From Micromonospora echinospora (GTDB lineage: Bacteria; Actinomycetota; Actinomycetes; Mycobacteriales; Micromonosporaceae): a stretch of DNA of 64,000 nt. The stretch's first letter is position 1. Each line of letters begins with the position of its first letter. The DNA lies in NCBI RefSeq assembly GCF_014203425.1, contig NZ_JACHJC010000001.1:3436001-3500000 (forward strand), read 5' to 3'. The notes below the pieces were generated by a model. It ran no database searches. It saw only the letters and a list, made by a program, of their open reading frames with translations, and was not told the origin of the DNA. Positions 11,195 to 58,604 of this stretch are shown piece after piece. Made by a program: the position numbers and the translations under genes.

Positions 11195-11208
11195 ACCAAT
11201 CGCTTGGT
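11195..11208 (+). promoter_or_regulatory. KstR2-type operator 1 (variant ACCAATCGCTTGGT)
   Basis: One base off the AnCAAGnnCTTGnT consensus. It lies 74 bases before the ATG of the gene at 11283 and would control the three-gene unit 11283-13506. Confidence 0.7.
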
Positions 11209-11282
11209 TGGTTGATTCGGAAGTCATGCCGGCTCCCAGATTCACACCGGGGAGTCGCCTCACTACGCAAGGAGACCTCGCG

Positions 11283-12206
11283 ATGGAGGTACTCGTGGTC
11301 GGTGGAACCGGCATGATCGGGGTCCACACCGCCCTTCACCTGCGGGATCGGGGAGACAACGTCACCGTCGCCGCCCGAGGGGCGGTCGATGCGGACTCAC
11401 CCGTCGCCGACCTGCCCGTCCTCCGCGGGGACTACACCCGCCAGACCTTCACCCGGGAGGACCTGGCTCCCTTCGACGCTGTCGTCTTCGCTGCGGGGCA
11501 GGACGTACGCCACCTTCCCCGCGACGTGGACGAGACGGAGTTCTGGAAGGAGACCCAGAGCGCGGGGGTGCCGGCCTTCGCCGCGCTCGCCAAGAGCGCT
11601 GGTGTCTCCCGTTTCGTCCAGGTCGGCAGCTACTACCACCATCTGCGACCCGCCCTGGCCGACTCCAGCGCCTACGTCGCCGCCCGCCGCGACGCCGACG
11701 AGGGAGCGCGGGTGTTGGCTGACGACTCCTTCACGGTCTGCACCCTCAACCCGCCCTCGATCATCGGTGCCATCCCCGGCATCACGGCCAAGCGCTACCG
11801 CCGCATGGTGTCCTGGGCGGCCGGCAACGAGCCGCAGATCCCCGACCACGCGCCGGCCGGCGGCACGAACTACATGTCGGCCCGGTCCCTGGCCGAGGCG
11901 ATCGGCGGCGCGCTCGACCGCGGCACGGCGGGCGCGGCCTACCTCGTCGGTGACGCCAACCTCACGTTCACGCAGTTCTTCCAGTTGCTCGTCGACGCGG
12001 CCGGGGGCAACCGCACCATCGCCGAGCTCGACGAGCCGCACCCCTTCATGCCCGACTCGATGATCGTCCAGGGCCGCGGGAACGTCCTCGCCTATGAACC
12101 GGATCCGGCCGAGACCGCACTGCTCGGCTACACCCGCGGTGACTGCGAGCGTGCCGTCGCCGAGCTCGTCCAGGTCGTGCGCGCGGCGACCGCTCGCGCG
12201 GCGTGA
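11283..12206 (+). CDS. NAD(P)-dependent epimerase/NmrA-like oxidoreductase
   Basis: A 307-residue extended-SDR or NmrA-like protein. It opens with VLVVGGTGMIGVHTALHL, a GGxGxxG dinucleotide-binding motif. FVQVGSYYHH supplies a Ser-Tyr-Tyr region, but a typical YxxxK is not clear (YVAARRDADEGARV contains a Tyr/Arg/Arg version), so it may be a sensor or an atypical oxidoreductase. AAGGAG at 11269-11274 supports the ATG. It is the first gene of a unit with a SnoaL-like protein (GTGA overlap) and an SDR, behind operator 1, and probably acts on a ketone or hydroxyl of the island's substrate (inferred). Confidence 0.75.
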   Translation: MEVLVVGGTGMIGVHTALHLRDRGDNVTVAARGAVDADSPVADLPVLRGDYTRQTFTREDLAPFDAVVFAAGQDVRHLPRDVDETEFWKETQSAGVPAFAALAKSAGVSRFVQVGSYYHHLRPALADSSAYVAARRDADEGARVLADDSFTVCTLNPPSIIGAIPGITAKRYRRMVSWAAGNEPQIPDHAPAGGTNYMSARSLAEAIGGALDRGTAGAAYLVGDANLTFTQFFQLLVDAAGGNRTIAELDEPHPFMPDSMIVQGRGNVLAYEPDPAETALLGYTRGDCERAVAELVQVVRAATARAA

Positions 12207-12679
12207 CCGGCCTCGACGCGGCCGACCTCACCGCGCTGCGCGCACTCTCCGAGACGTATGCCGCGGCCGCCGACGACCGTGACGCGGCAGCGATCGGCGC
12301 GCTGTTCGTCCCGGACGGCGTCCTCGTGGTTCCCGAGCCGCCGGCGCACCTCGACCCGCACGTGTCCCACGTCGGCCGCTCCGCTGTCGTGGCCGCGCTC
12401 GGGGCACTCGCCGGCACCCTGGCGACGACCCACGTCGTGGCCGGGACGCGCTACCTGCCGACGCCGGCCGGGGCCCGTGGCCGGGTCCGCGGCACGGCCC
12501 ACCACCTGCTCCCCGGTCGCGACGGACCCTCGGACCTCGTCTGGTTCCTGCACTACGACGACGAGTACGCGCGTACCGACGAAGGATGGGCCTTCACACG
12601 TCGCGCGGTGACCATCAACTGGATCGAACGCCACCGCGTCTCCCTGACCAGGGCCGACGAGGAAGGAACCGGCAGATGA
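12203..12679 (+). CDS. SnoaL/NTF2-like small protein
   Basis: A 158-residue single-domain protein of the NTF2-like superfamily. The N-terminal helix LRALSETYAAAADDRDAAAIGALFVPDG is followed by beta strands that include THVVAGTRYL, LVWFLHYDDEYARTDEGW and FTRRAVTINWIE. This superfamily includes the delta5-3-ketosteroid isomerases and polyketide cyclases, plus many proteins of unknown role. Specific ketosteroid isomerase residues cannot be assigned by eye. It starts with GTG overlapping the stop of the previous gene, and its own stop overlaps the next ATG, so the three genes are translationally coupled. An isomerase role on a cyclic ketone is plausible. Confidence 0.75.
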   Translation: MTGLDAADLTALRALSETYAAAADDRDAAAIGALFVPDGVLVVPEPPAHLDPHVSHVGRSAVVAALGALAGTLATTHVVAGTRYLPTPAGARGRVRGTAHHLLPGRDGPSDLVWFLHYDDEYARTDEGWAFTRRAVTINWIERHRVSLTRADEEGTGR

Positions 12680-13506
12680 GCGCCACCCGCAGGCTCGAGG
12701 GCCAGATCGCTGTCGTCACCGGCGGCGCCCTCGGGATCGGCGGCGGCATCTCCCGCCGTCTCGCCGCCGCAGGCGCCCACGTCGTCCTCGTCGACATCGA
12801 CGGGGAGGCCGCCGCCGGCACTGCCGCGGACATCCGTAGCGCCGGCGGCGAGGTCGAGGTCGTCCTCGCCGACGTGCGCACCGCTGACGGTGTCGCCGTC
12901 GCGGTCGCCGCCGCGGCGGCCGTCGACTCGGGGCGGGTCGACGTGCTCGTCAACAACGTCGGCGACTTCCGCCCGGCCTCCAGGACCTTCCTGCACTCGA
13001 CCCCCCAGCAGTGGCAGGCGCTCTACGAGATCAACCTGTGGCACGTGCTCGCGATGACGCATGCGCTGCTGCCCGGCATGGTCGATCGGGGCCGTGGCGC
13101 CATCGTCAACAACTCGACCGTCGAGGCCTTCCGGGGTATCCCGGCGTGCGCTCCGTACTCCGCCTACAACGCCGGGGTCAGCGCCTTCACCAAGAGCCTC
13201 GCCGTCGAGGTCGCCGGCCACGGGGTGCGGGTCAACGCGATCGCGCCCGACCTCGCCGACACGCCCCAGACACCGGCCGCGGCGATGCTGCGCGGACGCG
13301 ACCCGGAGCTGATCCGTACGTGGATCCCCGTCGGGCGCTTCGGCGAGCCCGACGACTACGCCGCCGTCGTCGAGTTCCTCGCCAGCGACGACGCCCGCTT
13401 CGTCACCGGGCACACGATCCCCGTCGACGGAGGGACCTTGGCCGCCTCGGGCTGGTACGCGCGTACCGACCGCAAGGGCTGGTCGAACATGCCCAACGAG
13501 GCCTGA
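12676..13506 (+). CDS. SDR-family protein with Asn in place of the catalytic Lys
   Basis: A 276-residue classical-type SDR by layout: TGGALGIGGG cofactor motif near residue 15, LVNNVGD (the NNAG position) near 93, the active-site Ser in VNNSTVEA, then PYSAYNAGVSAFTKSLAVE. In the YxxxK motif the Tyr is residue 161, but residue 165 is Asn instead of Lys. Since Lys normally lowers the Tyr pKa, activity may be altered or absent. The C-terminal FLASDDARFVTGHTIPVDGG is standard. It is translationally coupled (ATGA) to the SnoaL-like gene. Confidence 0.85.
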   Translation: MSATRRLEGQIAVVTGGALGIGGGISRRLAAAGAHVVLVDIDGEAAAGTAADIRSAGGEVEVVLADVRTADGVAVAVAAAAAVDSGRVDVLVNNVGDFRPASRTFLHSTPQQWQALYEINLWHVLAMTHALLPGMVDRGRGAIVNNSTVEAFRGIPACAPYSAYNAGVSAFTKSLAVEVAGHGVRVNAIAPDLADTPQTPAAAMLRGRDPELIRTWIPVGRFGEPDDYAAVVEFLASDDARFVTGHTIPVDGGTLAASGWYARTDRKGWSNMPNEA

Positions 13507-13554: not shown

Positions 13555-14424
13555 TCAGTCGCGGCGGTCGAGACCGAAGAGCTCGGCTGCCGCCGCGAGC
13601 TGGTCGAGGTACTCGGCCAGGTCACGGTGCCGTACGACGAGGTTGACCACGGTGCCCCCCGCCTCGCCGATCCGGCCGACGAGGTCGAGCGCGGCCTCCG
13701 GGGCGCCCGTCGGGTCGAGGCGGGCCGGAGGCGTGATGACGACGTCGAACCCCTCCGGCAGGTCGTGCTCGGCGAGCATCCGCGGCAGGGTCTCCAGGTC
13801 CGGTCCGCGATACGTGACGGGGGCCGGCGCCCACCCGTCGCCCAGGGTGACCGCGCGCCGGAGGGCACGCTTGCTGTGCCCACCGACCCAGATCGGGACC
13901 TTCTCCTGAACAGCGTGCGGGCTGACCACCTGCTCGGTGAAGTGGTAGTACTCCCCGTGGTAGGTCGCGAGCCGTACCGACAGGGACGCCCGCAGGGCCC
14001 GCAGGGCGTCGTCGGCCCGTGGCCCGCGGTCGGCGAACGGACGCCCGAGCAGCGCGAACTCCTCTTCAAGGTTGCCGACGCCGACTCCGAGGACGACCCG
14101 TCCGCCGCTGAGGTGGTCGAGGGTGCCGTACCGCTTGGCCAACTCGAGCGGATGGTGCAGCCCGAGCACGAGCACGTACGGCAGGAAGCGGATCCGCTCG
14201 GTGATCGCCGCGAGGTACGAGAACGTCGCGACCGGGTCGTAGAAGCGTTCACCTCGTGCCAGCCCCGGTGACACGCTGACGTGCTCCGGGCAGGTGAAGA
14301 ATTCGTACCCGAGCCGGTCGGCGGTCGTGAAGACCTTCCGCAACTCGGCGACCCCGGCCCCGGCCTCCCACGGAGGCCGGGGCCCGGAGTCGGCCAGGAC
14401 CGGGGAGCTGAGGCCGATGCGCAC
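13555..14424 (-). CDS. LLM-class F420-dependent oxidoreductase (paralogue A)
   Basis: A 289-residue luciferase-like monooxygenase-fold protein. It has the family landmarks FFTCPEHVSVSPGL, YDPVATFSYLAAITERIRF, LHHPLELAKRYGTLDHLSGGRVVLGVGVGNLEEEF (split here for length: LHHPLELAKRYGTLD and SGGRVVLGVGVGNLEEEF) and VPIWVGGHSKRALRRA. Members use F420 or FMN; the F420-dependent subgroup is common in actinomycetes, and a relative (Rv3520c) lies in the mycobacterial cholesterol region. It is the last gene of a minus-strand unit that begins at 18543 behind operators 2 and 3, and it resembles the protein at 14998-15894, so the pair probably arose by tandem duplication. The GTG at 14424 is used. The reaction is unknown. 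Confidence 0.8.
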   Translation of the reverse strand: MRIGLSSPVLADSGPRPPWEAGAGVAELRKVFTTADRLGYEFFTCPEHVSVSPGLARGERFYDPVATFSYLAAITERIRFLPYVLVLGLHHPLELAKRYGTLDHLSGGRVVLGVGVGNLEEEFALLGRPFADRGPRADDALRALRASLSVRLATYHGEYYHFTEQVVSPHAVQEKVPIWVGGHSKRALRRAVTLGDGWAPAPVTYRGPDLETLPRMLAEHDLPEGFDVVITPPARLDPTGAPEAALDLVGRIGEAGGTVVNLVVRHRDLAEYLDQLAAAAELFGLDRRD

Positions 14425-14428
14425 GGCC

Positions 14429-14947
14429 TCAGGCCTCGGACTCGACGGCGCGGGCGAGGAGGTCGCGGCCCTCGTCGGTGCCGTCGAGCTGGCGGTTCCA
14501 GCGGTGGGTCACCTTCCAGCCCTCGTCGGTGCGGGTGAACTCCCACCGGTTTGACCCGGTACGCCAGATCCGGTAGCCGTTCTGGTCGGGAGCGCTGAGC
14601 ACGAGCTGCGAGTAGTTCGTCACGACGGCCCGATCGCCGTCGACGACGATGTGCGGCAGCCCCATGAGGTGGGCGGCGCCCGAGTGGATCAGGGACTGGT
14701 GCCGCTCACCGTTGACCATGCCGCGCAGGGCGTCCCGGCCGTTGAGCACGACCGGGTAGGTGTCGTACACGCCCTCCTCGGTCCACAACTGGGCGGTGAT
14801 CTCGGCCGAGCCGCTGTCCACGGCGGGGCCGTAGCTGGCCACGATCCGCCAGAGGGCGATCTGGTCCTCGGCTGCGGCGAGGCGCCGTTCGGCCTGCTCG
14901 AGGCGCGCCTCGAGCAGGGCCAGCCGGTCGGGCTGCGAGTCGGTCAT
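14429..14947 (-). CDS. SnoaL/NTF2-like protein with N-terminal coiled helix
   Basis: A 172-residue protein. An N-terminal charged helix (LALLEARLEQAERRLAAAED) precedes a SnoaL-like alpha+beta barrel with IALWRIVASYGPAVDSG, LWTEEGVYDTYPVVLNGRDA and the strand FTRTDEGWKVTHRWNRQLDG. The last motif closely follows the pattern of ring-hydroxylating-dioxygenase beta-like or SnoaL_4 proteins of steroid clusters. It lies between two LLM oxidoreductases in one unit and may isomerise or dehydrate their product (inferred). Start: ATG at 14947 with AGGAACC upstream. Confidence 0.78.
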   Translation of the reverse strand: MTDSQPDRLALLEARLEQAERRLAAAEDQIALWRIVASYGPAVDSGSAEITAQLWTEEGVYDTYPVVLNGRDALRGMVNGERHQSLIHSGAAHLMGLPHIVVDGDRAVVTNYSQLVLSAPDQNGYRIWRTGSNRWEFTRTDEGWKVTHRWNRQLDGTDEGRDLLARAVESEA

Positions 14948-14997
14948 GGTGGGTTCCTTTCGATCGGGCCTCGCCGGCCGAGCCGGTCGACGGCCGG

Positions 14998-15894
14998 TCA
15001 GGTCGTGGACGCGTTCGCCTCGAAGCGTTCCGGGGCGAGCTCGCGCAGCGCGGCCATCTGCTCGAGGTGGTGGGCCGCCGAGGTGGCCACGAGGCTCGCG
15101 TTGACAGCGGTCGCCCCGACGGCATCGGCTGTGCGCAGGTGCTCGCGGGAGCCGTCCGGGTCCCCGAGCGGGTCCAGCGGCGGAATCTGCAGCACGAGGT
15201 CGAAGCCGTCGGGGCGTTCCACGGAGTTCCACATGCGGGTCAGCTCCCGCGGCCCGAGGCCGAACGGTGCCCACCCGGTGCCGTACGCCACGGCGCGGCG
15301 TAGCGAGCGGCGGGTGCGCCCACCGATCCACAGCGGCACCGTGGTGCGCGGCGCGTGCGGTTCGACGACGAAGTCGGTGAACGTGAAGTGGGGCCCCTCG
15401 TGGTGCGGCACGGCCCTGCCCCACGCCGCGCGCAGGGCCGTGATCGCTTCGTCCGCGATCGCGCCGCGCCCGGCGAACTCGGCGCCGAGCAGGTCGAACT
15501 CCTCTTCGAGGCTGCCGACCCCGATCCCGAGGACGACGCGCCCGCCGCTGAGCAGGTCGAGGGTGCCGTAGGTCTTGGCGAGGGCGAGCGGATGGTGGTA
15601 GCCGATGACGACGACGTTCGTCGCGAGCCGGACGCGGCGCGTCGCCGAGGCGAGGAACGACAGCGTGGCCACGGGGTCGAAGTACGTCGCGCCCCGCTCG
15701 ACGGCGATCGGGGCGGGCACGGCGACGTGCTCGCTGCATGTCAGATGGTGGTAGCCCAGGTCGTCGGCGGCGCGGGCGACGGCGAGCAGCGCACCGCCGA
15801 CGTCGGGGCCGGACAGGACGTCCCGTTCCCAGGCGGCCGCGGTGCGCGGATGTTGGACGACGACCGGGGTGAGCAGCCCTACGCGTGCGGTCAT
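14998..15894 (-). CDS. LLM-class F420-dependent oxidoreductase (paralogue B)
   Basis: A 298-residue luciferase-like protein, paralogous to that at 13555-14424. Shared landmarks are LTCSEHVAVPAP, YFDPVATLSFLASATRRVRL, GYHHPLALAKTYGTLDLLSG, VVLGIGVGSLEEEF and VPLWIGGRTRRSLRRAVAYG. F420 or flavin would bind in the TIM-barrel mouth. It is fourth in the minus-strand unit starting at 18543 and overlaps the stop of its neighbour upstream (15891-15894). Which of the two duplicates has the ancestral reaction cannot be told. Confidence 0.8.
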   Translation of the reverse strand: MTARVGLLTPVVVQHPRTAAAWERDVLSGPDVGGALLAVARAADDLGYHHLTCSEHVAVPAPIAVERGATYFDPVATLSFLASATRRVRLATNVVVIGYHHPLALAKTYGTLDLLSGGRVVLGIGVGSLEEEFDLLGAEFAGRGAIADEAITALRAAWGRAVPHHEGPHFTFTDFVVEPHAPRTTVPLWIGGRTRRSLRRAVAYGTGWAPFGLGPRELTRMWNSVERPDGFDLVLQIPPLDPLGDPDGSREHLRTADAVGATAVNASLVATSAAHHLEQMAALRELAPERFEANASTT

Positions 15895-17027
15895 GACAGG
15901 GTCTCCGATCCGGCGACGCCGCGCGTCGCGCTCGTGGGTCCGGCGGTCGCGGGCGGGGTGCGGGACGCGGCACTCGTCGGGATGAGCCGGAGGCGTTCGA
16001 GCAACGCGCCGAAGTCCTCGTCGTCGTCTGGGTCGAGCGGCAGCCCGAGCCCGAGCCCGTCGGCGATCCCGCCGTAGGCCTGCCCGAGCACGTCCGGCAG
16101 CTCGGCGTAGGTGCCGTGCGGGATGAGCGTGGCCAGGGTCTCGTCGTCGAGGGTGCCGGCGAGTCCCGTCCAGCGCCCGGAGGCGGCCATCGCGGCGAGC
16201 CGTTCGCCGACCCGGCCCAGGCCGAGCCGGTCCAGGGTCGTGCGGTAGGCGGGTGTGGAGAAGAGGAACGCCAGCTCCTGGCGGGCGGAGTCGCGGCTCG
16301 CGGCGAGTGCGGCCGGCGTCGGACCGGTGATCGACTTGGACACCACGACGACCCGGGGGATACCGGCGCGTCCGGCCCGCTCGGCCCCGGCGCGCAGCGC
16401 GGGAAGCACGACAGTGCGCAGGTGACTCGGGTGCGAGTTCGTCGCGTGGGTGACGAAGCCGTCGGCGAGCTCGCCGGCCACCTCACAGACGCGTCGGTTG
16501 ACCCCGCCGGTGTAGAGCGCCGGGGCGGCGGTAGACAGCGGGCCCGGATTGAAGTACGGCTGGAGCCGGGTGAAGCGGTAGTGGCTGCCCTCGTGCTCCA
16601 GGGGCTCACCGGTGCTGAACGAGGCGAAGATCGCCCGGATCGAGGCGAGGTAGTCGCGCAGGTTCTCGACCGGCCGCTCCCACGGTACCGAGAAGCGGCC
16701 GACGATGTTGCCGCGCACCTGGGTGGCCAGACCGAGCTGGAAGCGACCCTCGGAGAACCGCGCGAGGTCCCACGCGGCGTACGCGGTCACCATCGGGCTG
16801 CGGGGGAACGCCAGCGTCATGCTGGTGCGTACGGTGATCCGGCTGGTGTGCTCGGCCGCGAGCAGCGCGACCGCCAGGGAGTCGTGCGTCGTCTCGGGGA
16901 TGTGCACGGTGTCGAAGCCGAGCCGTTCGATGCGCGCCACTACCGCGGGCACCTCGCGCAGCGCCGTCGTCGGCGGCAGCGTCGTGGTCAGCTCCATCCG
17001 GGTGGCGGGTGCCTGTGGTGTCGTCAC
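15891..17027 (-). CDS. LLM-class F420-dependent oxidoreductase (different subfamily)
   Basis: A 378-residue luciferase-like protein, longer and unlike the two paralogues that follow. It shows IERLGFDTVHIPETTHDSLA, VRTSMTLAFPRSPMVTAYAA, DLARFSEGRFQLGLATQV and VCEVAGELADGFVTHATNS. This arrangement resembles the F420-dependent group whose probable F420 class is annotated from the TIGR03617 type; that assignment is tentative. GTG at 17027 overlaps the stop of the SDR upstream by GTGA. A cofactor specificity test is needed to separate F420 from FMN. Confidence 0.75.
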   Translation of the reverse strand: MTTPQAPATRMELTTTLPPTTALREVPAVVARIERLGFDTVHIPETTHDSLAVALLAAEHTSRITVRTSMTLAFPRSPMVTAYAAWDLARFSEGRFQLGLATQVRGNIVGRFSVPWERPVENLRDYLASIRAIFASFSTGEPLEHEGSHYRFTRLQPYFNPGPLSTAAPALYTGGVNRRVCEVAGELADGFVTHATNSHPSHLRTVVLPALRAGAERAGRAGIPRVVVVSKSITGPTPAALAASRDSARQELAFLFSTPAYRTTLDRLGLGRVGERLAAMAASGRWTGLAGTLDDETLATLIPHGTYAELPDVLGQAYGGIADGLGLGLPLDPDDDEDFGALLERLRLIPTSAASRTPPATAGPTSATRGVAGSETLS

Positions 17028-17899
17028 GGGATGCGGCCCTCCAGGGTGGCGTCGACGACCTCGTCGCCGTTGACGATCCGGGCGAGCTTCTCCAGCCGGG
17101 GCGCGCGCCGCAGGTGGGCCCCGCCCTCGACGGGCAGGCAGGCGCCGGTGATCCATGAGGAGCCGGGACCGCACAGGAAGCGGACCGCGGCGGCGACGTC
17201 CTCGGCGCGCCCGATCCGCGACAGGGGCTTCTCGGCGATGGTCGCGGCGGCCAGCTCGGGGTCGGCCAGCAGCAGGCCCGGGTTGGCCCCGTCGGTGGCG
17301 ACGATGCCGGGGCGTACGACGTTGACCCGTACCGCGAGGTGGCCGAGTTCGTCGGCGGCGACCCGGACGAGTGCCTCGAGTGCGGCCTTGCTCACCGAGT
17401 ACGACGGCATGAACGGGAAGGAGTGCCCGCCCGCGCTCGACGAGGTGCACACGATCGCGCCCCCACCGTGCGCGGCCAGGGCCTGTCCGCCGTGCCGGAT
17501 GGCGTGCAGCGCCGTGGTGACGTTGCGCCGGAAGTCGTGCTCCAGGGTCTCGGCGTCGAGGGCGAGCACGGGACGGAAGGTGCCGCCGCCGACCGTGGTG
17601 ACGACGGCCGCCAGCGGGGTCTCGTCGGCGGCGCGTACCGCGACTGCGACGTCCCGCTCGTGGGTGGAGTCGCCGGCGCTGATCCGTACCGGTGGTGCTC
17701 CAGGGGCGGCTGCGGCGATCGTCTCGGCCGCCGCCCGCAGCGTCGCCTCGGTCCGTCCCATGATCGTCACGGCGGCGCCGTCGGCGGCCAGCGCGGCGGC
17801 GATGGCGCGGCCGAAGCCGCCGCCCCCGCCGATGACGAGCGCGCCGCGGCCGGCGAGCGGGCCGGGTGCGGCGGTGCTCGGGTGGGGATCGGTGCTCAT
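17024..17899 (-). CDS. Classical SDR oxidoreductase
   Basis: A 291-residue SDR. The cofactor loop is IGGGGGFGRAIAAALAADGA; the active-site Ser lies in VCTSSSAGG and the catalytic pair in PSYSVSKAALEALV (Tyr and Lys present), followed by RVNVVRPGIVATDG. The C-terminus FLCGPGSSWITGACLPVEGG is typical and is followed by an extra basic tail of about 25 residues. It would oxidise a hydroxyl or reduce a ketone. ATG at 17899 overlaps the thioesterase stop, so it is coupled. Confidence 0.85.
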   Translation of the reverse strand: MSTDPHPSTAAPGPLAGRGALVIGGGGGFGRAIAAALAADGAAVTIMGRTEATLRAAAETIAAAAPGAPPVRISAGDSTHERDVAVAVRAADETPLAAVVTTVGGGTFRPVLALDAETLEHDFRRNVTTALHAIRHGGQALAAHGGGAIVCTSSSAGGHSFPFMPSYSVSKAALEALVRVAADELGHLAVRVNVVRPGIVATDGANPGLLLADPELAAATIAEKPLSRIGRAEDVAAAVRFLCGPGSSWITGACLPVEGGAHLRRAPRLEKLARIVNGDEVVDATLEGRIP

Positions 17900-18573: not shown

Positions 18574-18587
18574 ACCAAGCGCTTGCT
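18574..18587 (+). promoter_or_regulatory. KstR2-type operator 2 (ACCAAGCGCTTGCT)
   Basis: Perfect match to AnCAAGnnCTTGnT, inside a longer imperfect palindrome ATCAAGCAAcc...GCTTGCTTGAT. It lies about 30 bases upstream of the GTG at 18543 (minus). Confidence 0.85.
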
Positions 18588-50846: not shown

Positions 50847-52460
50847 GTGAGTGACGTGTTGACCACGATCCCCGCCCTGCTGCGGCAGGCCGCGCAGGAC
50901 GCCGCCGAGCTCGAGGCCCTGGTCGACGGTGACGTGCGGATGACCTTCGCCGAGCTCGACGCGGCCGTCACCCGGTTCGCGCGGGCCGCGGTCGCGCACG
51001 GTCTCGAGCCGGGGGACCGCGTCATCGTCTGGGCCCCGAACAGCGCCGACTGGGTCATCAGCGCCCTCGGCGTGCTGGCAGCGGGGGGCGTGCTGTGCCC
51101 CGTCAACACCCGCTTCCGTGGTGCGGAGGCGCGGTCCGTCATCGCCAAGGTCCGGGCCACGATGGTCGTCCTCGACGACGCCTTCCTGGACGCCCACTAC
51201 CTGGCCGCGCTGCGCGGCGACGGGCCGTCACCGGCCATCGGCCGCCCGGTGCCGCTGCTGCCCTCGGTGCGTACCGTCGTCGACCTGTCCGCCACCGGCC
51301 CCGAACAGACCGATGACGGCGTGTGGTCCCTGGCGGGCTTCACCGCGCTGGCCGACGAGGTCGACCCCGAAATCATCGACGGACGGATCGCCGCCCTCGC
51401 CCCGGAGAGCGTGGCCGACATCCTGTTCACCTCAGGCACCACCGGCTACCCCAAGGGCGCGATGGTCTCGCACGCCTCGAACCTTCGCGTCGACAGGGAG
51501 TGGGCCCGCCTCGTCGGGCTGCGGCGAGGCGACCGCTATCTGATGGTCAACCCGTTCTTCCACAGCTTCGGCTACCGGGCCGGCATCCTGGCCTGCCTCC
51601 TCATGCGCGCCACGATCATTCCGGTCGCGGTGTTCGCCGTCGAGACCGTGCTGCGTCTCATCGAGCAGGAACGTGTCACGGTCTTCCCCGGCGCACCCAC
51701 CGTCTACACCTCCCTGCTCGAACACCCCGACCTCGGCACGTACGACCTCAGCTCGGTACGCCTGGCCGTCACCGGGGCCACGATCGTGCCGGTGTCGCTG
51801 CTGCGCCGGATGCGCGAGGAACTCGGCTTCCGCGACGTCATCACCGCCTACGGCCTGACCGAGACGTGCGGCACCGCGACCGTGTGCCCGCCCGACGCCG
51901 GCCTCGAGCGGATTTCGACCAGCTGCGGGCGGGCGATCCCGGGCACCGAGTTGCGGATCGCCGGTCTCGACGGACAGGCGCTGCCGGCCGGTGAGTCGGG
52001 CGAGGTCCTCGTGCGTGGCTACAACGTGATGTCGGGCTACTTCGAGGACCCGGTCGCCACGGCGCAGGCCATCGACGAGGACGGCTGGCTGCACACCGGT
52101 GACGTCGGCTGGGTCGACGAGGACGGCTACCTGCGCATCACCGACCGGATCAAGGACGTCTACATGGTCGGGGGCTTCAACGTCTACCCCGCCGAGGTCG
52201 AGCGTGTGCTGTCCGAACATCCCGCCGTCTTCGACGTCGCAGTCGTCGGGGTCCCGGACGCGCGGATGGGCGAGGTCGGCAGCGCCTTCGTGCAGACCGT
52301 TCCCGCCTGGAGCGGGGACGAGTCGGCGCTCATCGACGAGCTCGAGGCGTGGTGCCGGGAGCGGCTGGCCAACTTCAAGCGCCCGCGCAGCTTCACAGTC
52401 GTTCCGGCGCTGCCACGAACCGCGAGCGGAAAGATCCAGAAGTTCAAGCTCACCCGGTGA
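50847..52460 (+). CDS. fadD3: FadD3-like HIP-CoA ligase
   Basis: A 537-residue acyl-CoA synthetase that parallels mycobacterial FadD3 (Rv3561) throughout: IVWAPNSADWVISALGVLAA, PVNTRFRGAEARSVI, ADILFTSGTTGYPKGAMVSH, NPFFHSFGYRAGILACLLMR, GAPTVYTSLLEHPDLGTYDL and VYMVGGFNVYPAEVERVL. FadD3 attaches CoA to HIP, the indanedione propionate left after A/B-ring removal, and so starts ring C/D degradation. AGGAG with six-base spacing favours GTG 50847 over the ATG two codons earlier. Confidence 0.92.
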   Translation: MSDVLTTIPALLRQAAQDAAELEALVDGDVRMTFAELDAAVTRFARAAVAHGLEPGDRVIVWAPNSADWVISALGVLAAGGVLCPVNTRFRGAEARSVIAKVRATMVVLDDAFLDAHYLAALRGDGPSPAIGRPVPLLPSVRTVVDLSATGPEQTDDGVWSLAGFTALADEVDPEIIDGRIAALAPESVADILFTSGTTGYPKGAMVSHASNLRVDREWARLVGLRRGDRYLMVNPFFHSFGYRAGILACLLMRATIIPVAVFAVETVLRLIEQERVTVFPGAPTVYTSLLEHPDLGTYDLSSVRLAVTGATIVPVSLLRRMREELGFRDVITAYGLTETCGTATVCPPDAGLERISTSCGRAIPGTELRIAGLDGQALPAGESGEVLVRGYNVMSGYFEDPVATAQAIDEDGWLHTGDVGWVDEDGYLRITDRIKDVYMVGGFNVYPAEVERVLSEHPAVFDVAVVGVPDARMGEVGSAFVQTVPAWSGDESALIDELEAWCRERLANFKRPRSFTVVPALPRTASGKIQKFKLTR

Positions 52461-52615
52461 GCCCGGCGTTCGCGGGTCCCCTCACCGGGGTGCTGCCCGC
52501 GAAGGCGCTTCGCACTGGCCCAGTGCCCCGCGGCCGGCAGGCCCGACGCCCCGACCAGACCTGACACCGACGGCACCGCCGTCACGGGCGCCAGCCCGAG
52601 AACCGGAGGACACCA

Positions 52616-53836
52616 ATGCAGGACGCAGTCATCGTCGCCGCGGCGCGCTCGCCGATCGGCCGGGCCTTCAAGGGGTCGCTGGCCTCGATGCGGGCCGACG
52701 ACCTGGCCACCCAGATGATCCAGGCGGCCCTGGCCCAGGTGCCGGCGCTCGACCCGGCCCAGATCGACGACCTCATGCTCGGCTGCGCTCAGCCGGCCGG
52801 CGAGCAGGGCTGGGGCCTCGGGCGCGTCGTCGCGGTCGAGCTCGGGCTCGACCGGGTCCCCGGGACGACCGTGCAGCGTTACTGCGCATCGAGCCTGCAG
52901 ACGACCAGGATGGCGCTGCACGCCATCCGCGCCGGTGAGGCGGACGTGCTCGTCTCCGCCGGGGTCGAGGTCGTCTCGCACTTCGCCGCCGGCAAGTCCG
53001 ACGGCATGCCGGACACGAAGAACCCGATCTTCGCCGCGGCGGGGGAGCGCACCGCCACCCGCGGACGGGGTGGCGCCGGCCCGTGGACCGACCCACGCGA
53101 CGCGAATGAGCTTCCCGACGTCTACATCGCGATGGGCGAGACCGCCGAGAACGTCGCGAGCCACCGCGGCGTGAGCCGCGCCGAGCAGGACGAGTGGGCC
53201 GCCACGAGCCAGCAGCGGGCCCGGGCCGCGATCGAGTCGGGCTTCTTCGCCACCGACATCACGCCGGTGACCCTCGCCGACGGCACCGTCGTGGCCACCG
53301 ACGACAGCCCTCGCGCCGGAGTGACGGCCGAGTCGCTGTCCGGCCTCAAACCGGCCTTCCGGCCCGACGGTACGGTGACCGCGGGCAACTGCTGCCCGCT
53401 CAACGACGGCGCGGCCGCCCTCATCATCATGTCCAGCCGTAGGGCCGCCGAACTCGGCGTCACGCCGCTGGCCCGGATCCTGTCCACGGGCGTCTCGGCG
53501 ATCTCGCCGGAGATCATGGGTCTCGGCCCGGTCGAGGCGTCGAGGCGGGCCCTCGCGCTGGCCGGGCTCTCGATGGCCGACATCGATCTCGTCGAGCTCA
53601 ACGAGGCGTTCGCCGCTCAGGTCGTCCCCTCCATCTCGGACCTCAAGGCCAACCCCGAGCGGGTCAACGTCCACGGTGGTGCGATCGCCCTGGGCCACCC
53701 GTTCGGTCAGACCGGAGCGCGGATGACGACGACGCTCATCAACGGGCTGCGGGCCCGGGACGGCCAGTTCGGTCTCGAGACGATGTGTACCGCCGGTGGC
53801 CAGGGCATGGCGATGGTCATCGAGCGGCTCTCCTAG
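52616..53836 (+). CDS. Thiolase (acetyl-CoA acyltransferase type)
   Basis: A 406-residue thiolase. VQRYCASSLQTTRMALHAIR holds the nucleophilic Cys near residue 90, VNVHGGAIALGHPFGQTGAR the catalytic His, and MCTAGGQGMAMVIERLS the second Cys. It is of the FadA/FadI-like class rather than FadA6 and would release acetyl- or propionyl-CoA from a beta-ketoacyl-CoA. The contents of operator 7 place it with fadD3. CGGAGG upstream supports the ATG. Confidence 0.88.
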   Translation: MQDAVIVAAARSPIGRAFKGSLASMRADDLATQMIQAALAQVPALDPAQIDDLMLGCAQPAGEQGWGLGRVVAVELGLDRVPGTTVQRYCASSLQTTRMALHAIRAGEADVLVSAGVEVVSHFAAGKSDGMPDTKNPIFAAAGERTATRGRGGAGPWTDPRDANELPDVYIAMGETAENVASHRGVSRAEQDEWAATSQQRARAAIESGFFATDITPVTLADGTVVATDDSPRAGVTAESLSGLKPAFRPDGTVTAGNCCPLNDGAAALIIMSSRRAAELGVTPLARILSTGVSAISPEIMGLGPVEASRRALALAGLSMADIDLVELNEAFAAQVVPSISDLKANPERVNVHGGAIALGHPFGQTGARMTTTLINGLRARDGQFGLETMCTAGGQGMAMVIERLS

Positions 53837-53980: not shown

Positions 53981-55057
53981 TCAGTGCCGGCGCAGCGCCG
54001 CCGCGAGGGTCGCCGCCCGGCCGGCGACCGCGGCCGACTGTGCGGCGAACGAGGCCGCGGTGCGGTCGCCACCGCTCATCGCGCCCTGCGCGACCCTGGT
54101 GTACACGCCCTCGAGGATGCACGCGGTCTTCCACCAGTTGTAGGCGACGAAGTAGTCGATTCGCGCCGGGTCGGTGCCGGTGGCGAGGCAGTACCGGGAG
54201 AGCAGTTCGTCCCGGGTCGAGAAGCCGGGCAGGACCGTGGCCGGGTCGTGCAGCGCGCGGGCCGGGTCGTCGGCCTGCGCCCAGTAGACGAGCAGTTGGC
54301 CGACGTCGGCCAACGGGTCTCCGATCGTGGCCAGCTCCCAGTCGAGCACGCCCTGAACCTGCCATCGAGAGTCGAGCATGCAGTTGTCGAGGCGGAAGTC
54401 GCCGTGCACGATCCCGGAGCGGGACTGCTCGGGCGCCGCCGCCACGAGGTGCTCGTGCGCGGTCTGCAGATCGGGCAGGTCGCGGATCCTGCTCCGGTGC
54501 CAGTTCTCGTGCCAGCGCCCGAGCTGCCGGGTGATGTAGTCACGGCGACGGGCCAGACCTCCCAGCCCGATGACCTCCGGGGCGAGTCGGTGCAGGGCCA
54601 CGAGTGCGTCGACGAGCGTGGGGCCGATGAGCGCGCGGTCGGCCTCGGTGGTGAGCCGCCCGACGTCGGCGGGGCTGCGCAGGATCACGCCGTCGAGGTG
54701 CTCGAGTACGACGAGAGGGGCGCCGGCGACCTCGCCCGTCTCCTCGACGGCGAGCACTCGCGGCACCGGGAGGTGGCCGTGCAGACCGCGCAGGATCCGC
54801 GCCTCGCGCAGTACGTCGTGTGCGGTGGCCGGGTGGTTTCCGAGCGGTGGACGGCGCAGCACGACGACGTGGCCGGCCGCGTCGGTGGTCCGGTAGGTCA
54901 GGTTGGAGCGCCCTCCGGCGATGACCTCGTGTCGGAGGTTCCCCTGCAACTCGGGCACCGCGCTGCCGAGCCAGGCGTCGACCCCCGCCGGGAGCCCGGC
55001 GTGCCGGGTGGTGTCGATCGGGGCCGGGCCTGTCTGGGCGTGACCTGCTGCCGTCAT
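53981..55057 (-). CDS. APH-family phosphotransferase-like protein
   Basis: A 358-residue protein kinase-like fold protein (aminoglycoside/choline kinase family; relatives are often named phosphotransferase family in actinobacterial lipid loci). It shows LTYRTTDAAGHVVVLRRPPL, the catalytic loop GIVHGDFRLDNCMLD (HGDxxxxN) and LDWELATIGDPLADVGQLL (metal-binding Asp). It has its own operator (8) 30 bases upstream. Its substrate is unknown; similar proteins are found next to acyl-CoA dehydrogenases as in FadE36 loci. Confidence 0.85.
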   Translation of the reverse strand: MTAAGHAQTGPAPIDTTRHAGLPAGVDAWLGSAVPELQGNLRHEVIAGGRSNLTYRTTDAAGHVVVLRRPPLGNHPATAHDVLREARILRGLHGHLPVPRVLAVEETGEVAGAPLVVLEHLDGVILRSPADVGRLTTEADRALIGPTLVDALVALHRLAPEVIGLGGLARRRDYITRQLGRWHENWHRSRIRDLPDLQTAHEHLVAAAPEQSRSGIVHGDFRLDNCMLDSRWQVQGVLDWELATIGDPLADVGQLLVYWAQADDPARALHDPATVLPGFSTRDELLSRYCLATGTDPARIDYFVAYNWWKTACILEGVYTRVAQGAMSGGDRTAASFAAQSAAVAGRAATLAAALRRH

Positions 55058-55086: not shown

Positions 55087-55100
55087 AGCAAGCGCTTGGT
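55087..55100 (+). promoter_or_regulatory. KstR2-type operator 8 (AGCAAGCGCTTGGT)
   Basis: Perfect match to the consensus, 30 bases upstream of the phosphotransferase ATG at 55057 (minus). Confidence 0.8.
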
Positions 55101-55161: not shown

Positions 55162-55749
55162 TCAGTCGCGGGCGAGAATTCCGTCGAGGAACACCGAGAC
55201 GAAGTCGTCGGCGAACTTCGCCATGGAGTACGACGGGGTCGGCTTGAACCAGCGGACCGAGAGCCACAACGAGTCACGCAGCATGCCGTGCAGCACGCGT
55301 ACCGGGATGTCGTTGCGGAAGTCGCCCGTGGCGATACCGGCCTCGAGCACCTGGATCCAGGCCCGCTGGATCGCGGTCGCAGCGTCGCGGATGTGCTCGT
55401 AGCCGTCGATCTTGGGCAGGTAGTTGCTCGAGTTCTGGTATATCTCGGTCGCGTGCGGGTGAGCCTCGATGTTGGCCAGCGAGCTCGTGACGAGCTTGCG
55501 CAACTGGATCGCCGGCTTCTCCTCGGACTCCAGGACCTGGGCGTAGCGGTAGGTCAGGTCGGTCAGATAGTCCGAGATGATCGCGTTGACCATCTCGTCC
55601 TTGGACTTGAAGTGGTGGTAGAGGCTGCCCGAGAGGATGCCGACCGAGTCGGCGATCTCGCGGACTGTCGTGGCATCGATTCCTTTGGCCGCGAAAAGGT
55701 GCGCGGCGTTGTCGAGGATGACCGAGCGCCGGTCCTGGGTCGTCGACAT
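55162..55749 (-). CDS. kstR2: KstR2-like TetR-family repressor
   Basis: A 195-residue TetR protein. The DNA-binding part AAKGIDATTVREIADSVGIL followed by SGSLYHHFKSKDEMVNAI is nearly that of mycobacterial KstR2 (Rv3557c), and the C-terminal LRDSLWLSVRWFKPTPSYSM matches the KstR2 DTTWVSVRWYRPGG region. KstR2 represses HIP-degradation genes and is released by HIP-CoA. Operator 9 lies 35 bases upstream, so it should repress itself, and eleven matching operators are spread over the island. ATG 55749 is used since an earlier start would overlap the operator. Confidence 0.93.
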   Translation of the reverse strand: MSTTQDRRSVILDNAAHLFAAKGIDATTVREIADSVGILSGSLYHHFKSKDEMVNAIISDYLTDLTYRYAQVLESEEKPAIQLRKLVTSSLANIEAHPHATEIYQNSSNYLPKIDGYEHIRDAATAIQRAWIQVLEAGIATGDFRNDIPVRVLHGMLRDSLWLSVRWFKPTPSYSMAKFADDFVSVFLDGILARD

Positions 55750-55783: not shown

Positions 55784-55797
55784 GTCAAGCGCTTGCT
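55784..55797 (+). promoter_or_regulatory. KstR2-type operator 9 (GTCAAGCGCTTGCT)
   Basis: The first base differs from the consensus. It faces the kstR2 start at 55749 and is the autoregulatory site. Confidence 0.8.
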
Positions 55798-55877: not shown

Positions 55878-55891
55878 ACCAAGCGCTCGTT
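55878..55891 (+). promoter_or_regulatory. KstR2-type operator 10 (variant ACCAAGCGCTCGTT)
   Basis: One mismatch in the CTTG half but within a wider palindrome, CAACC...GGTTG. It lies 52 bases before the GTG at 55943. Confidence 0.7.
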
Positions 55892-55942: not shown

Positions 55943-56887
55943 GTGTCCGACCCGAAGACCGGCCCGATCCCTGCCGTCCCGTCCGGGCGTCCGCCCGCCG
56001 CCGGCCCTGACCAGGCAGCCGGCCTGCTCGCCGGCCGCGTCGTCCTCGTCACCGGCGCCGCCAACGGGTTGGGAGCGGCATACGCGCGCGGCATCGCCGC
56101 GGCCGGGGCCCACGTGGTCGCCGTCGACGTCGACGCGGAGGGACTCCAGCGGCTGAGCGGGCAGCTCGCCGCGGCTGACGGCCAGGGCTCGATCAGGGTC
56201 GCCGACGTCGCGGACTGGGCGGGCGCCCACGACCTCGTGCGTGACTGCGTCGCCGAGCACGGCAGGCTCGACGGCCTCGTCAACAACGCCGGCGTCTTCG
56301 CCATGGCCCGCGCCGGCACCGAGTCCGAGGCCACGGTGCGCCGGATGCTCGAGGTCAACGTGCTCGGCGCCGTCGCCTGGGGAGACGCCGCTGTCGCGGC
56401 GATGCGTACCCAGGGTCACGGGGTCCTGGTCAACGTCACCTCGGGTGAGCAGATGGGCCGTGCCGAGACGGCCGTGTACGGGGCGACGAAGGCCGCGATC
56501 GCCACGCTCACCTATGCGTGGGCGGCCGAACTCGCCGACGTCGGGATCCGCGTCAACGCGATCTCCCCCAACGCGCAGACCCGGATGGCCGAGGTGCTCG
56601 AGCAGTTCCGCGGCGCACCGAGCGGGCAGAACGCGGGCATCGCGCCCGAGGCCAACGTGCCGCTGCTGCTCTACCTGCTCTCCGACCTCAGCGTCGAGCT
56701 GACCGGCCAGGTGCTGCGCTCCTACGGTCCCGAACTCATGCTGACGACCCACCCGGCGCTCGCCGAGCCCGTGCTGCGGCACACGGCGTGGACCCCGGAG
56801 CGCATCGCCGAGGCCGTCACGGCGCGGCTGCTGCCGCACCTGGCACCCCTCGGGATGCGCCGGGCGCGCATCGAATACCTCGACTGA
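55943..56887 (+). CDS. C-terminally extended SDR
   Basis: A 314-residue SDR of the MFE-2-like type. VVLVTGAANGLGAAYARGIA, LVNNAGVFAMARAGTESEAT, Ser in NVTSGEQMG and the pair ETAVYGATKAAIATLTYAWA are intact. The 90-residue tail (VELTGQVLRSYGPELMLTTH) matches those at 45394 and 61495 in placement. An ATG at 55841 is in frame, but it would put operator 10 inside the gene; GAGAGGGG at 55929-55936 supports GTG 55943. Confidence 0.82.
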   Translation: MSDPKTGPIPAVPSGRPPAAGPDQAAGLLAGRVVLVTGAANGLGAAYARGIAAAGAHVVAVDVDAEGLQRLSGQLAAADGQGSIRVADVADWAGAHDLVRDCVAEHGRLDGLVNNAGVFAMARAGTESEATVRRMLEVNVLGAVAWGDAAVAAMRTQGHGVLVNVTSGEQMGRAETAVYGATKAAIATLTYAWAAELADVGIRVNAISPNAQTRMAEVLEQFRGAPSGQNAGIAPEANVPLLLYLLSDLSVELTGQVLRSYGPELMLTTHPALAEPVLRHTAWTPERIAEAVTARLLPHLAPLGMRRARIEYLD

Positions 56888-56950
56888 TCCGACGTTCGAG
56901 ACTGACCCGACGTCCGACACCCGGACGACCCCCGAGCCGACAGGAGCCCG

Positions 56951-57766
56951 ATGTCCGTCACGACCAACCCGGTCTGCGTCAGCGGCATGGCCGCGATGTC
57001 CTGGGACCTGCCCGAGGAGATCGCGATGTACCGGCGTACCGGTACCGACCTCGTCGGCCTGCAGCGCAGCAAGGTCGCCTCCTTCGGCGTGCCGGCTCTC
57101 GGAGACCTGCTCGCCCGGCACGACGTACGGCTCGGCTACCTCGTGCACAGCTTCACCGCCCACCCGGACGACGAGCCGGGCTGGGCGCAGCAGGTCGCGG
57201 CGTTGCAGGACGGCGTCGTCGACGCCCGTCGGCTCGGGGCCGACCTCGTCTACCTCACCTCGGGCCCCTCGGCGCACCTGACGTGGGAGGAGGCGGCCGG
57301 CCGGTTCGCCGAGCGGATCGCTCCGGTCGTGGCCACCGCTCGCGAACACGGGGTGCGCCTGGGTGTGGAGAACACCCTGCCGGTCAAGTGCGACCTCAGC
57401 TTCACCCACACCGCGCGGGACGCCCTCGCCCTGGCCGACCTCTGCGGCATCGGCATCTGCCTCGACCTCTACTGCTGCTGGCAGGAGCGGGGCCTGACCG
57501 ACCTCGTCCGCGATCGGGTCGGTCAGGTCGAGTTGCTGCAGGTGTCCGACTTCCGGGTCGGCACCTCGACCTTCCCGAACCGGTGGGTGCCCGGGGACGG
57601 CGACCTGCCGATGGCCGGTCTGTTGGCGAGCGTGCTGCGGGCCGGCTACACCGGCATCGTCGACGTCGAGTTGATCGGTCCGGCCATCGAGGCCGAGGGC
57701 GCCGAGTCGGCGGTGACCCGCTCGATCACCTGGACGCGCGAGCAGATCGCGGTGGCGCGTCCCTGA
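56951..57766 (+). CDS. Sugar phosphate isomerase/epimerase-like TIM-barrel protein
   Basis: A 271-residue AP-endonuclease-2/xylose isomerase-like barrel. Metal-ligand positions are visible: GVRLGVENTLPVKCDLSF (Glu), GIGICLDLYCCWQE (Asp), VELLQVSDFRVG and YTGIVDVELIGPA (Glu). Members include hydroxypyruvate isomerase, inosose dehydratase and various epimerases. It follows the SDR behind operator 10 and might isomerise or dehydrate a ketol of the pathway, or trim a sugar-bearing substrate. Reaction unknown. Confidence 0.75.
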   Translation: MSVTTNPVCVSGMAAMSWDLPEEIAMYRRTGTDLVGLQRSKVASFGVPALGDLLARHDVRLGYLVHSFTAHPDDEPGWAQQVAALQDGVVDARRLGADLVYLTSGPSAHLTWEEAAGRFAERIAPVVATAREHGVRLGVENTLPVKCDLSFTHTARDALALADLCGIGICLDLYCCWQERGLTDLVRDRVGQVELLQVSDFRVGTSTFPNRWVPGDGDLPMAGLLASVLRAGYTGIVDVELIGPAIEAEGAESAVTRSITWTREQIAVARP

Positions 57767-57770
57767 GCGC

Positions 57771-58532
57771 TCAGGGCGCGTCCGCCCATCGCGGCGCGCG
57801 CTTGGCGACGAACGCGGCCGCGCCCTCGGCGGCATCCGGCCCGGCGAGCAGTTCGAGGGTCGCGAGCCGGTTGACCGCACCGAGATCGCCCACGCGGGGG
57901 TCCAGGCTCAGGTGCATGAGCCGCTTGGTCGCCCGCACCGCCGCGGGGGAGTGGGTCGCGATCCGGGCGCCCAGCTGGAGCGCGCGCGGAAGGACCTCGT
58001 CGGCGGGGACCACGGCATTGACCAGGCCCAGCTCGTGGGCCCGGGCCGCGGGAAGCGGTTCGGCAGTCAGCCCGAGTTCCAGGGCTACGGCGACCGGCAC
58101 GCGACGGGGCAGGTCGGTGCCGCCCTCGGTGGCGGCGATGCCGCGCCCCACCTCGGGCAGCGCGAAGTAGGCGTGCTCGGCCGCGACGACGAGGTCGCAG
58201 GCGAGGGCGAGTTCGAAGCCGCCGCCGACGGCGGGCCCGTTGACCGCGGCGATGACCGGCTTGCGGTAGCCGCCGCGCAGCAGCGTCAGCGGGCTGCGGG
58301 CCACGTCGACCAGGCGCCCCTCGGCCGCGGCGCGCAGGTCCATCCCCGCGCTGAAGGACAACTCGCCGGTGCCGGTCAGCACGACCGCGCGCACGCCCGC
58401 GTCCGCGTCGTACCCGAGCAGGGCGTCGGTCATCGCCAGGAGGGTGTCGGGATCGAGGGCGTTGCGTACCTGCGGCCGATTGATCCTGATGACTCCCACC
58501 GCGCCGACGCGCTCGCGCACCACGGTGTTCAT
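57771..58532 (-). CDS. Enoyl-CoA hydratase/isomerase (crotonase family)
   Basis: A 253-residue crotonase. It has the oxyanion-hole region GELSFSAGMDLRAAAEGR and both general glutamates: NGPAVGGGFELALACDLVVA and YFALPEVGRGIAATEGG, then KRAPRWA at the end. This is ordinary hydratase chemistry and resembles EchA19 more than EchA20, the ring-D hydrolase. It occupies the position next to ipdA that echA20 holds in mycobacteria. It is divergent from ipdA around operator 11. Confidence 0.85.
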   Translation of the reverse strand: MNTVVRERVGAVGVIRINRPQVRNALDPDTLLAMTDALLGYDADAGVRAVVLTGTGELSFSAGMDLRAAAEGRLVDVARSPLTLLRGGYRKPVIAAVNGPAVGGGFELALACDLVVAAEHAYFALPEVGRGIAATEGGTDLPRRVPVAVALELGLTAEPLPAARAHELGLVNAVVPADEVLPRALQLGARIATHSPAAVRATKRLMHLSLDPRVGDLGAVNRLATLELLAGPDAAEGAAAFVAKRAPRWADAP

Positions 58533-58590
58533 GTTTCGTCCTCCTTCGCAACAGGGTCTTGACCCTCTCCCTGTGGCTGTTAGGGTACCA

Positions 58591-58604
58591 ACCAAGCGCT
58601 TGCT
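58591..58604 (+). promoter_or_regulatory. KstR2-type operator 11 (ACCAAGCGCTTGCT)
   Basis: Perfect consensus between the crotonase start at 58532 (minus) and the ipdA start at 58705 (plus). Confidence 0.85.

Follow-up and report, generated by a model that had tools for sequence, protein, structure and literature searches.

Steroid breakdown is by accepted division governed by two repressors, KstR for the side chain and rings A/B and KstR2 for rings C/D. The account of the mycobacterial KstR2 regulon gives a consensus, motifs in three promoter regions and 15 genes, and lists igr as kstR-regulated (PMC3068626); HIP-CoA is the published KstR2 effector (PMC5380842). For the uptake of cholate metabolites by Rhodococcus jostii RHA1, a review names CamABCD for compounds with an aromatized A-ring and CamM for those with a perhydroindane structure, and it also deals with intermediates outside the cell and with cross-feeding among degraders of bile acids (PMC8399759); CamM has been called a transporter for reassimilation (PMC4810484). 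The subject of this analysis is a set of eleven KstR2-type operators in Micromonospora echinospora, located in a stretch of 64,000 nucleotides (nt) of contig NZ_JACHJC010000001.1 (positions 3,436,001 to 3,500,000), which is called the window throughout and to which the coordinates refer. Our analysis suggests that a single KstR2-family switch acts on these operators and that the genes behind them serve the C/D rings, the C22 side chain and the transport of hydrindane-type steroid remnants.

Operator motif and its restriction to one locus

A motif search of the window recovered all eleven palindromes listed in a preliminary description of this DNA, and the division given there was also found: seven copies of AnCAAGnnCTTGnT are exact (18574, 23392, 40077, 45323, 50778, 55087 and 58591) and four differ at one position (11195, 18709, 55784 and 55878). 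The eleven sites, read on both strands, have an extended consensus of roughly CAACCAAGCGCTTGGTTG. With up to two mismatches allowed, the window holds 22 matches, compared with 5.2 +/- 2.2 in 100 shuffles (largest 11); an additional one-mismatch match at 3407, absent from the earlier list, lies inside a called gene. Frequency of the motif across the genome had been named beforehand as the refuting test. In the whole genome (single contig, 7,125,866 bases), searched once for the CG-centred form and once for the general form, the exact motif occurs seven times, and all seven copies are in the window (P ~5e-15 under random placement). No exact site other than those listed was found within 80 kb on either side, and a wider regulon outside the locus was rejected on the grounds of zero exact sites elsewhere in the genome.

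All eleven sites are intergenic by our gene calls, in a region (11195-58604) of which 5.7% is non-coding, in agreement with the promoter gaps claimed earlier. They are spread over nine gaps, of which six are divergent and two, those of 23392 and 55087, co-directional; the gap of 11195 would be a seventh divergent one if the open reading frame 10255-11160(-) is a gene, and the placement is thus mostly divergent, as had been stated. Gene starts are approximate, because the calls were our own and codon-based, and they overlook at least one likely gene: the frame 10255-11160(-), facing operator 11195, encodes a DUF3885 protein (PF13021, 3e-49). The sites head 15 transcription units, a unit being an uninterrupted run of one strand. 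Together the units hold 52 called genes that start within the window and some six more beyond it; the earlier figure of some 45 governed genes was slightly low.

Analysis of the promoter gaps revealed a TAnnnT element whose first base lies 0-16 nt past the operator in 7 of 15 orientations, compared with 90 of 3996 intergenic windows (2.3%), and the same placement in 10 of 26 orientations in Nakamurella and 6 of 16 in Lentzea; this test was made after the sequences were seen. A role of the operator as a -35 element was not supported, with TAnnnT at the right spacing in 1 of 17 orientations (background, 8 of 729 TTGs in the window). A -10 element adjoining or overlapping the operator appears to fit better. 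The site of KstR is reported to overlap part of the -10 region (PMC1995591), and TAnnnT beside the operator would likewise fit a block of promoter access.

Conservation of the operators in relatives

A search with Ltp2 gave 79 loci, all of which were scanned for the motif, the comparison of gene order covering L022-L066. An exact site directly precedes CasI of a CasI-FadE-ChsH2-FadE-ChsH1-Ltp2 set in six compared loci, those of Micromonospora chalcea, Dactylosporangium roseum, D. fulvum, Nakamurella lactea, Lentzea albidocapillata and Enemella dayhoffiae. Within L022-L066, the loci of Rhodococcus, Prescottella, Williamsia and others have the same gene order and no exact site before CasI; in Microtetraspora (L066) the set is rearranged, with an exact site between the ChsE-type and Ltp2 genes.

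Larger stretches of four relatives (M. chalcea, D. roseum, Nakamurella and Lentzea) largely keep the gene order, and the sites too; between the window and M. chalcea DSM 43026 the proteins of the island share 92-99% identity. When a site is counted as at most one mismatch within 300 nt and genes below the identity threshold are left out, unit-first genes have a site in 11 of 12 cases in M. chalcea (the one exception lies where its locus ends), 11 of 12 in D. roseum, 11 of 13 in Nakamurella and 9 of 11 in Lentzea; the respective counts for internal genes are 1 of 26, 1 of 35, 2 of 35 and 1 of 28. The window's own counts (15 of 15 first and 0 of 37 internal genes) follow from the unit definition. 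Comparison of 12 sites, from six gaps in Nakamurella and Lentzea picked because both have a site, found the 14-base core identical in eight and matching at 12-13 positions in four, with 3-11 matching positions in the 18-base flanks.

One-mismatch matches, as stand-alone sites, are at background in the genome (126 places with at most one mismatch vs 131 for a reversed control), and the four weaker sites were for this reason judged by position and conservation. They are conserved to different degrees. Nakamurella and Lentzea each have an exact counterpart of operator 55784 ahead of the same gene; 18709 has a one-mismatch counterpart at the same place in D. roseum, its two-site gap occurring also in Nakamurella. 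Operator 55878 has a counterpart in M. chalcea, and the two-site gap is present in Nakamurella and Lentzea, with no site within 300 nt of the aligned SDR start. For 11195 only a two-mismatch version is present at the same place in D. roseum. The cluster of N. lactea (L118-L124, G004:C5) contains 13 exact sites in about 105 kb, and extra ligases and dehydrogenases lie between its conserved units.

The predicted regulator encoded at 55162-55749

The gene at 55162-55749(-) encodes a TetR-type protein whose nearest solved structures are 2ibd (7e-44), which we take to be RHA1 KstR2, and 4w97/4w1u, KstR2 of M. tuberculosis (3e-39). Its recognition helix, GILSGSLYHHF, is identical to that of both proteins, and Arg162, Trp166 and Arg170 (own numbering on chain 4w97) are kept, the first two of which are presumably contacts of the HIP-CoA effector. 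The preliminary description had given the gene a site of its own; operator 55784 (55784-55797), 34 nt before its start, agrees with this, and autoregulation is suggested by site position.

A tree of 45 rows, built on one alignment and rooted at the midpoint, with a long branch to the RHA1 and M. tuberculosis proteins, places the window protein in a group of 14 rows (91/88, not starred; Micromonospora core 100/98) that also takes in proteins of Lentzea, Nakamurella and Saccharomonospora-type hosts. KstR2 of RHA1 and M. tuberculosis groups with other Micromonosporaceae proteins, several of which adjoin IpdA (split 96/81). A grouping of the window proteins with RHA1 and M. tuberculosis KstR2 that leaves out the other Micromonosporaceae KstR2 proteins was rejected by the approximately unbiased test (p 0.012, for a group named after the tree was seen). 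Because of the structure matches, the helix and the tree clades, the KstR2 family name fits this predicted protein and strict orthology does not; the earlier label of a KstR2-like TetR gene stands in this family sense, with the same recognition helix, and not in the sense of an orthologue.

The window group and canonical KstR2 are separated by a 100/100 branch from a third clade of 14 rows, with a helix that is mostly GVFSGSLYHYF, found beside ChsH1-Ltp2 paralogues in Rhodococcus, Nocardioides and others. Exact AnCAAGnnCTTGnT sites lie close upstream in 11 of the 14 rows. Its presence beside this clade too, in Rhodococcus among others, means that the protein cannot be named from the motif alone. 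The third-clade loci (L034, L037, L038, L042, L050, L054-L057, L059, L061, L071 and L081) apparently have a separate regulator for another side-chain set.

Gene content of the predicted regulon

Gene families were assigned by an NCBIfam run on 50 open reading frames of the window, and by Pfam only for four ABC genes (31992-35822); the family scans started at 8781 and left out gene 63691-64212. Two exact operators in divergent gaps, 50778-50791 and 58591-58604, head the C/D-ring units, whose control is predicted by site position only. The first precedes a FadD3-family ligase (665 bits, above the curated cut-off of 657) and a thiolase (PRK07851) at 50847-53836(+) and, on its other side, a thiolase (PRK07801) and an SDR (PRK07856) at 48715-50672(-). 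The second lies between an enoyl-CoA hydratase at 57771-58532(-) and a unit at 58705-64000(+) with IpdA (342 bits to 6co6 in the PDB), IpdB (a weak CoA_trans match), an NMO-family protein that we take to be IpdC, an SDR, PRK07831, which we read as IpdF, and two further genes, the first of FAS1-dehydratase type. This unit continues past the window to about 70369 with two hydratases, a quinone-oxidoreductase-like gene and three acyl-CoA dehydrogenase-type genes, and is followed by an Etf pair that is perhaps part of it. Besides these ligase and Ipd genes, the C/D-ring module holds two thiolases, hydratases and an IpdE2-like dehydrogenase. Exact operator 45323-45336, also in a divergent gap, separates 45421-48620(+), with an SDR (PRK07791), an acyl-CoA dehydrogenase and an IpdE2-like acyl-CoA dehydrogenase below its cut-off (184 of 450 bits), from 41829-45287(-), with an MFS_3 transporter, an SDR, a SnoaL_4 protein and another SDR.

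The side-chain operon (23453-30147(+)) follows exact operator 23392-23405 at a distance of 47 nt and consists of six genes: CasI/FadD17-like (648 bits, below the cut-off of 900), FadE, ChsH2, FadE, ChsH1 and Ltp2 (605 bits to 6ok1). The ChsE-type dehydrogenase gives 470 bits to 6wy8 and 397 to 4x28, and ChsH2 matches 6ok1_B and 4wnb; the ChsH1-type hydratase has a HadB-like match and was assigned as ChsH1 by gene order. Gene order together with ChsE, ChsH1/H2 and Ltp2 homologues marks the operon as igr-type, the order being, we assume, that of M. tuberculosis igr. Among the window proteins scanned, families of earlier side-chain steps remain below cut-off (steroid 3-ketoacyl-CoA thiolase, 380 of 515 bits; EchA19, 221 of 400) and no P450 was found, so that the predicted side-chain module recognised is the C22 (propionyl), last-step one only. 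By site position, KstR2-type control is predicted to reach side-chain genes; the claim in the preliminary description that such genes come under a KstR2-type signal therefore holds for the igr-type operon and, as to the steps covered, only for the last one.

The transport genes comprise two Nik/Opp-type binding proteins, two Opp-type permeases, two ABC ATPases and one MFS_3 protein. The first binding protein is encoded with an acyl-CoA ligase and a CaiB-type CoA transferase at 18950-23363(+), beyond the divergent gap of operators 18574-18587 and 18709-18722. The second begins a run of seven genes (30276-37822(+)) with the permeases, the ATPases, a PrpD-like protein and a DDN-type oxidoreductase; its nearest plasmid relative (50%) likewise stands first in an ABC set, behind which lie acyl-CoA dehydrogenase, MaoC and thiolase genes.

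The remaining units are of more varied content. Operator 11195-11208, the weakest of the eleven, precedes three genes at 11283-13506(+), of the NAD-epimerase family, SnoaL_4 and SDR types. Six genes at 13555-18543(-) encode two TIGR03619 and one TIGR03617 F420-type LLM oxidoreductases, a SnoaL_4 protein, an SDR and a 4HBT thioesterase (17896-18543), 30 nt from operator 18574; this thioesterase-fold protein has an RHA1_ro05818_N domain, named for a Rhodococcus RHA1 gene. Exact operator 40077-40090, in a divergent gap, lies between 37828-40048(-), with a MaoC/FAS1-dehydratase type and a quinone-oxidoreductase-like gene, and 40205-41811(+), with one gene without a recognised family and an SDR. 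The co-directional exact operator 55087-55100 precedes an APH/phosphotransferase-family gene (53981-55057(-)), and operator 55878-55891 lies 51 nt before 55943-57766(+), which encodes an SDR and an AP_endonuc_2-type TIM-barrel protein. No known steroid-pathway role can be assigned to the three F420-type oxidoreductases (13555-16940) or the APH-family protein, and three SnoaL_4 proteins and ten SDRs are also without a clear place.

Ring-A/B markers and KstR in the genome and the family

Analysis of the genome revealed a feature that the preliminary description did not see: it has no KstR above cut-off (25 TetR matches, the best 40.5 bits, none over 280), no KshA_C match, and an HsaC score of only 25 bits. 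KshA and HsaC, the pair used as the sign of the 9,10-seco steroid pathway, were thus not found. FAD_binding_2 has four full-length genes in the genome, one of which, at G000:C1:2915570-2917285 (G000 being this genome), is KstD-like (PRK12845, 909 bits) and about 520 kb from the regulon. It belongs to a compact group of TetR, OYE, KstD-like and SDR genes (G000:C1:2914623-2919095). A ring-A/B cluster around it was considered and rejected, as no further gene of ring-A/B kind was recognised by eye among the genes inspected between 2.89 and 2.99 Mb, where the family scan was limited to TetR, OYE and KstD.

A total of 300 Micromonosporaceae genomes were surveyed for the CG-centred pattern, sites with other centres being uncounted, and 17 of them have at least four sites. 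Full-scoring KshA (E <=1e-80) is present in two of these 17, weak matches only (81, 82 and 126 bits) in three, and none in 12; in the whole survey it is present in 41 genomes, 39 of which have fewer than four sites. Site-rich regulons are therefore mostly without the ring-B oxygenase; mutual exclusion was not shown in this survey (2/17 vs 39/283, Fisher p 1.0), and the claim is one of uncoupling, not of avoidance. Six of the seven genomes with an igr-type operon behind a site, the present one included, are without full-scoring KshA (Nakamurella, 77 bits).

HsaC was searched in 26 chosen genomes and did not exceed its curated cut-off in any. Eight genomes (G302, M. chalcea, Nakamurella, G095, G109, G129, G136 and G052) gave no match or less than 40 bits; five g34 genomes reached 87-91 bits, Enemella 120, and a group made up of D. 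roseum, D. fulvum, G058, G117 and G034 scored 193-302. Scores of 318-333 bits in seven genomes were taken as HsaC because each of the seven matches has a full-scoring KshA no more than 9 kb away. D. roseum has a KstR-like match of 88 bits. Five genomes of one genus (G048, G074, G093, G119 and G135) carry four sites within a stretch of about 21 kb and gave no match to KshA; in the two clusters examined, those of G048 and G135, KstR2 and IpdABC occur with a thiolase and an ABC set, and no igr operon was seen in 40 kb.

Proposed regulon and alternative explanations

The explanation that we favour, to which we give a probability of roughly 0.7, is that one KstR2-family switch on eleven operators controls C/D-ring, C22 side-chain and transport genes for the use of hydrindane remnants. 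The repressor from 55162-55749 would bind all eleven palindromes, probably as a dimer on or beside the -10 region, and would repress its own gene; we propose that transcription of the 15 units is in this way blocked at once. Release would come from HIP-CoA or a HIP-CoA-like thioester made by the regulon's own FadD3-family ligase, an effector that we infer from the published effector of KstR2 and the kept contact residues. The regulon would then combine two catabolic modules, for the C/D rings and for the C22 (propionyl) side chain, with an Opp-type ABC set and an MFS transporter but with no recognised ring-A/B module, and one switch would do the work that is split in mycobacteria between KstR and KstR2. 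Side-chain genes, C/D-ring genes and transporters under one switch, with no recognised ring-A/B genes, would fit the uptake of remnants left by others. Judged from the gene content, the locus is most likely a self-contained regulon for finishing steroid remnants already trimmed of rings A and B; its probable role is to take up hydrindane-type remnants, possibly with the C3 side chain still attached, and to oxidise them completely, and the transporters may carry HIP-like compounds, presumably inward.

Several observations weigh against this explanation. The regulator is only 41% identical to RHA1 KstR2 and 38% to that of M. tuberculosis and falls outside their clade, in a sister group. One-mismatch matches, as stand-alone sites, are at background in the genome (126 places with at most one mismatch vs 131 for a reversed control), and the four weaker sites were for this reason judged by position and conservation. 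The seven genes at 30276-37822 follow a gap of 128 nt without an operator of their own, so that their inclusion in the unit of 23392 is presumptive, and a -35 element at fixed spacing was not found at the operators. The MFS protein belongs to MFS_3, which Pfam describes as a secretion effector. The repressor gene, the SDR of 55943 and several other genes were not found in the D. roseum cluster (L127-L128, G078:C1:2650001-2690000). In Lentzea the island occurs together with KshA and KstR, and in N. lactea a KstR-like match (146 of 280 bits; G004:C5:150610-151155) inside the site cluster is possibly a second regulator; neither absence is therefore a fixed part of the island.

The main rival is that this organism is a complete steroid degrader in which rings A/B are opened by unrecognised families, perhaps the F420-type oxidoreductases or SDRs of the regulon or the remote KstD, and in which the regulon covers no more than the second half. 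We consider this unlikely, though more probable than the other alternatives. The KstD-like gene does stand beside OYE, TetR and SDR genes, and three F420-type LLM enzymes and ten SDRs of the regulon have no assigned role; however, there is no exact site within the 100 kb around the KstD gene, the search that gave no KshA_C match here found full-scoring KshA in 41 of the 300 family genomes, and the HsaC score of 25 bits compares with 318-333 in the seven KshA-bearing relatives.

It is improbable, to a greater degree, that the operators are real and that their main repressor in vivo is a different KstR2 relative, of the canonical clade, elsewhere in the genome, the protein from 55162 being a paralogue with another or overlapping role. 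Proteins under Micromonospora names (P0046 and P0053) do belong to the canonical clade. D. roseum, in which most operators persist and the cognate gene was not found, has two canonical-clade relatives about 15 kb downstream, so that another protein presumably can use the sites. Nevertheless, 55162 is the sole TetR-type gene recognised among the called genes of the regulon, two operators lie before it, and this arrangement recurs in M. chalcea, Nakamurella and Lentzea. A substrate that is not steroid-derived, such as a hydrindane-like terpenoid or another branched polycyclic acid handled by the same kinds of enzyme, is slightly less probable still: many enzymes fall below their NCBIfam equivalog cut-offs, the CasI-like and IpdE2-like proteins among them, whereas HIP-pathway and igr-type homologues occur together with a KstR2-family regulator, and IpdA and Ltp2 match their solved counterparts strongly. 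Chance or a general repeat without a regulatory role, which the background level of one-mismatch forms might suggest, can be dismissed in view of seven exact copies in one locus, all intergenic and found again ahead of the same genes in four further genera or species.

With a single KstR2-family switch as the preferred explanation, a wider suggestion can be made, tentatively and with less than even odds: that this is a recurrent, possibly mobile regulon for the second half of steroid breakdown, with which actinobacteria without a known ring-A/B route import and finish remnants (HIP-type hydrindanes, with or without the C3 side chain) released by other microbes. If so, steroid breakdown would be split between species and the KstR/KstR2 division collapsed to one. 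The boundary between KstR and KstR2 appears to move at this locus, and known ring-A/B markers were not found in several of the genera searched. Cross-feeding on steroid intermediates becomes directly testable with genomes chosen by the 14-base motif, and a genome with HIP or igr genes need not be that of a complete steroid degrader.

Comparison with known systems

The closest described system is the KstR2 regulon of mycobacteria and R. jostii RHA1, with which the locus shares the operator consensus, the recognition helix, divergent intergenic sites, autoregulation by position and the C/D-ring (HIP) genes. It differs in size, with 11 sites and 52 to about 58 genes here vs three sites and 15 genes in the published description, in the addition of igr-type side-chain genes and transporters, and in a regulator that belongs to the sister group. 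In M. tuberculosis the igr operon (Rv3540c-Rv3545c) is part of the KstR regulon, whereas here the igr-type set stands behind a KstR2-type operator in a genome with no KstR above cut-off.

The transporters resemble CamABCD and CamM of RHA1 in that ABC and MFS transporters are located within a steroid gene set; here they lie behind KstR2-type operators, and the likeness noted is one of transporter kind. An enlarged KstR2 regulon has also been predicted in Nocardioides simplex VKM Ac-2033D, with predicted sites in 29 operons and a KstR2 cluster that contains a highly induced gene for an ABC transporter as well as second IpdAB genes. Unlike here, the igr genes of N. simplex are labelled KstR, and KstR, KshA and HsaC are listed as present. 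In the open-licence literature searched, at the level of titles and the opening parts of abstracts, we found no mention of igr genes under KstR2 or of such a regulon without KstR and KshA. Enlarged KstR2 regulons have thus already been predicted, and, as far as these sources go, what is new in this locus is the position of igr genes behind KstR2-type operators in a genome where KstR and KshA were not found.

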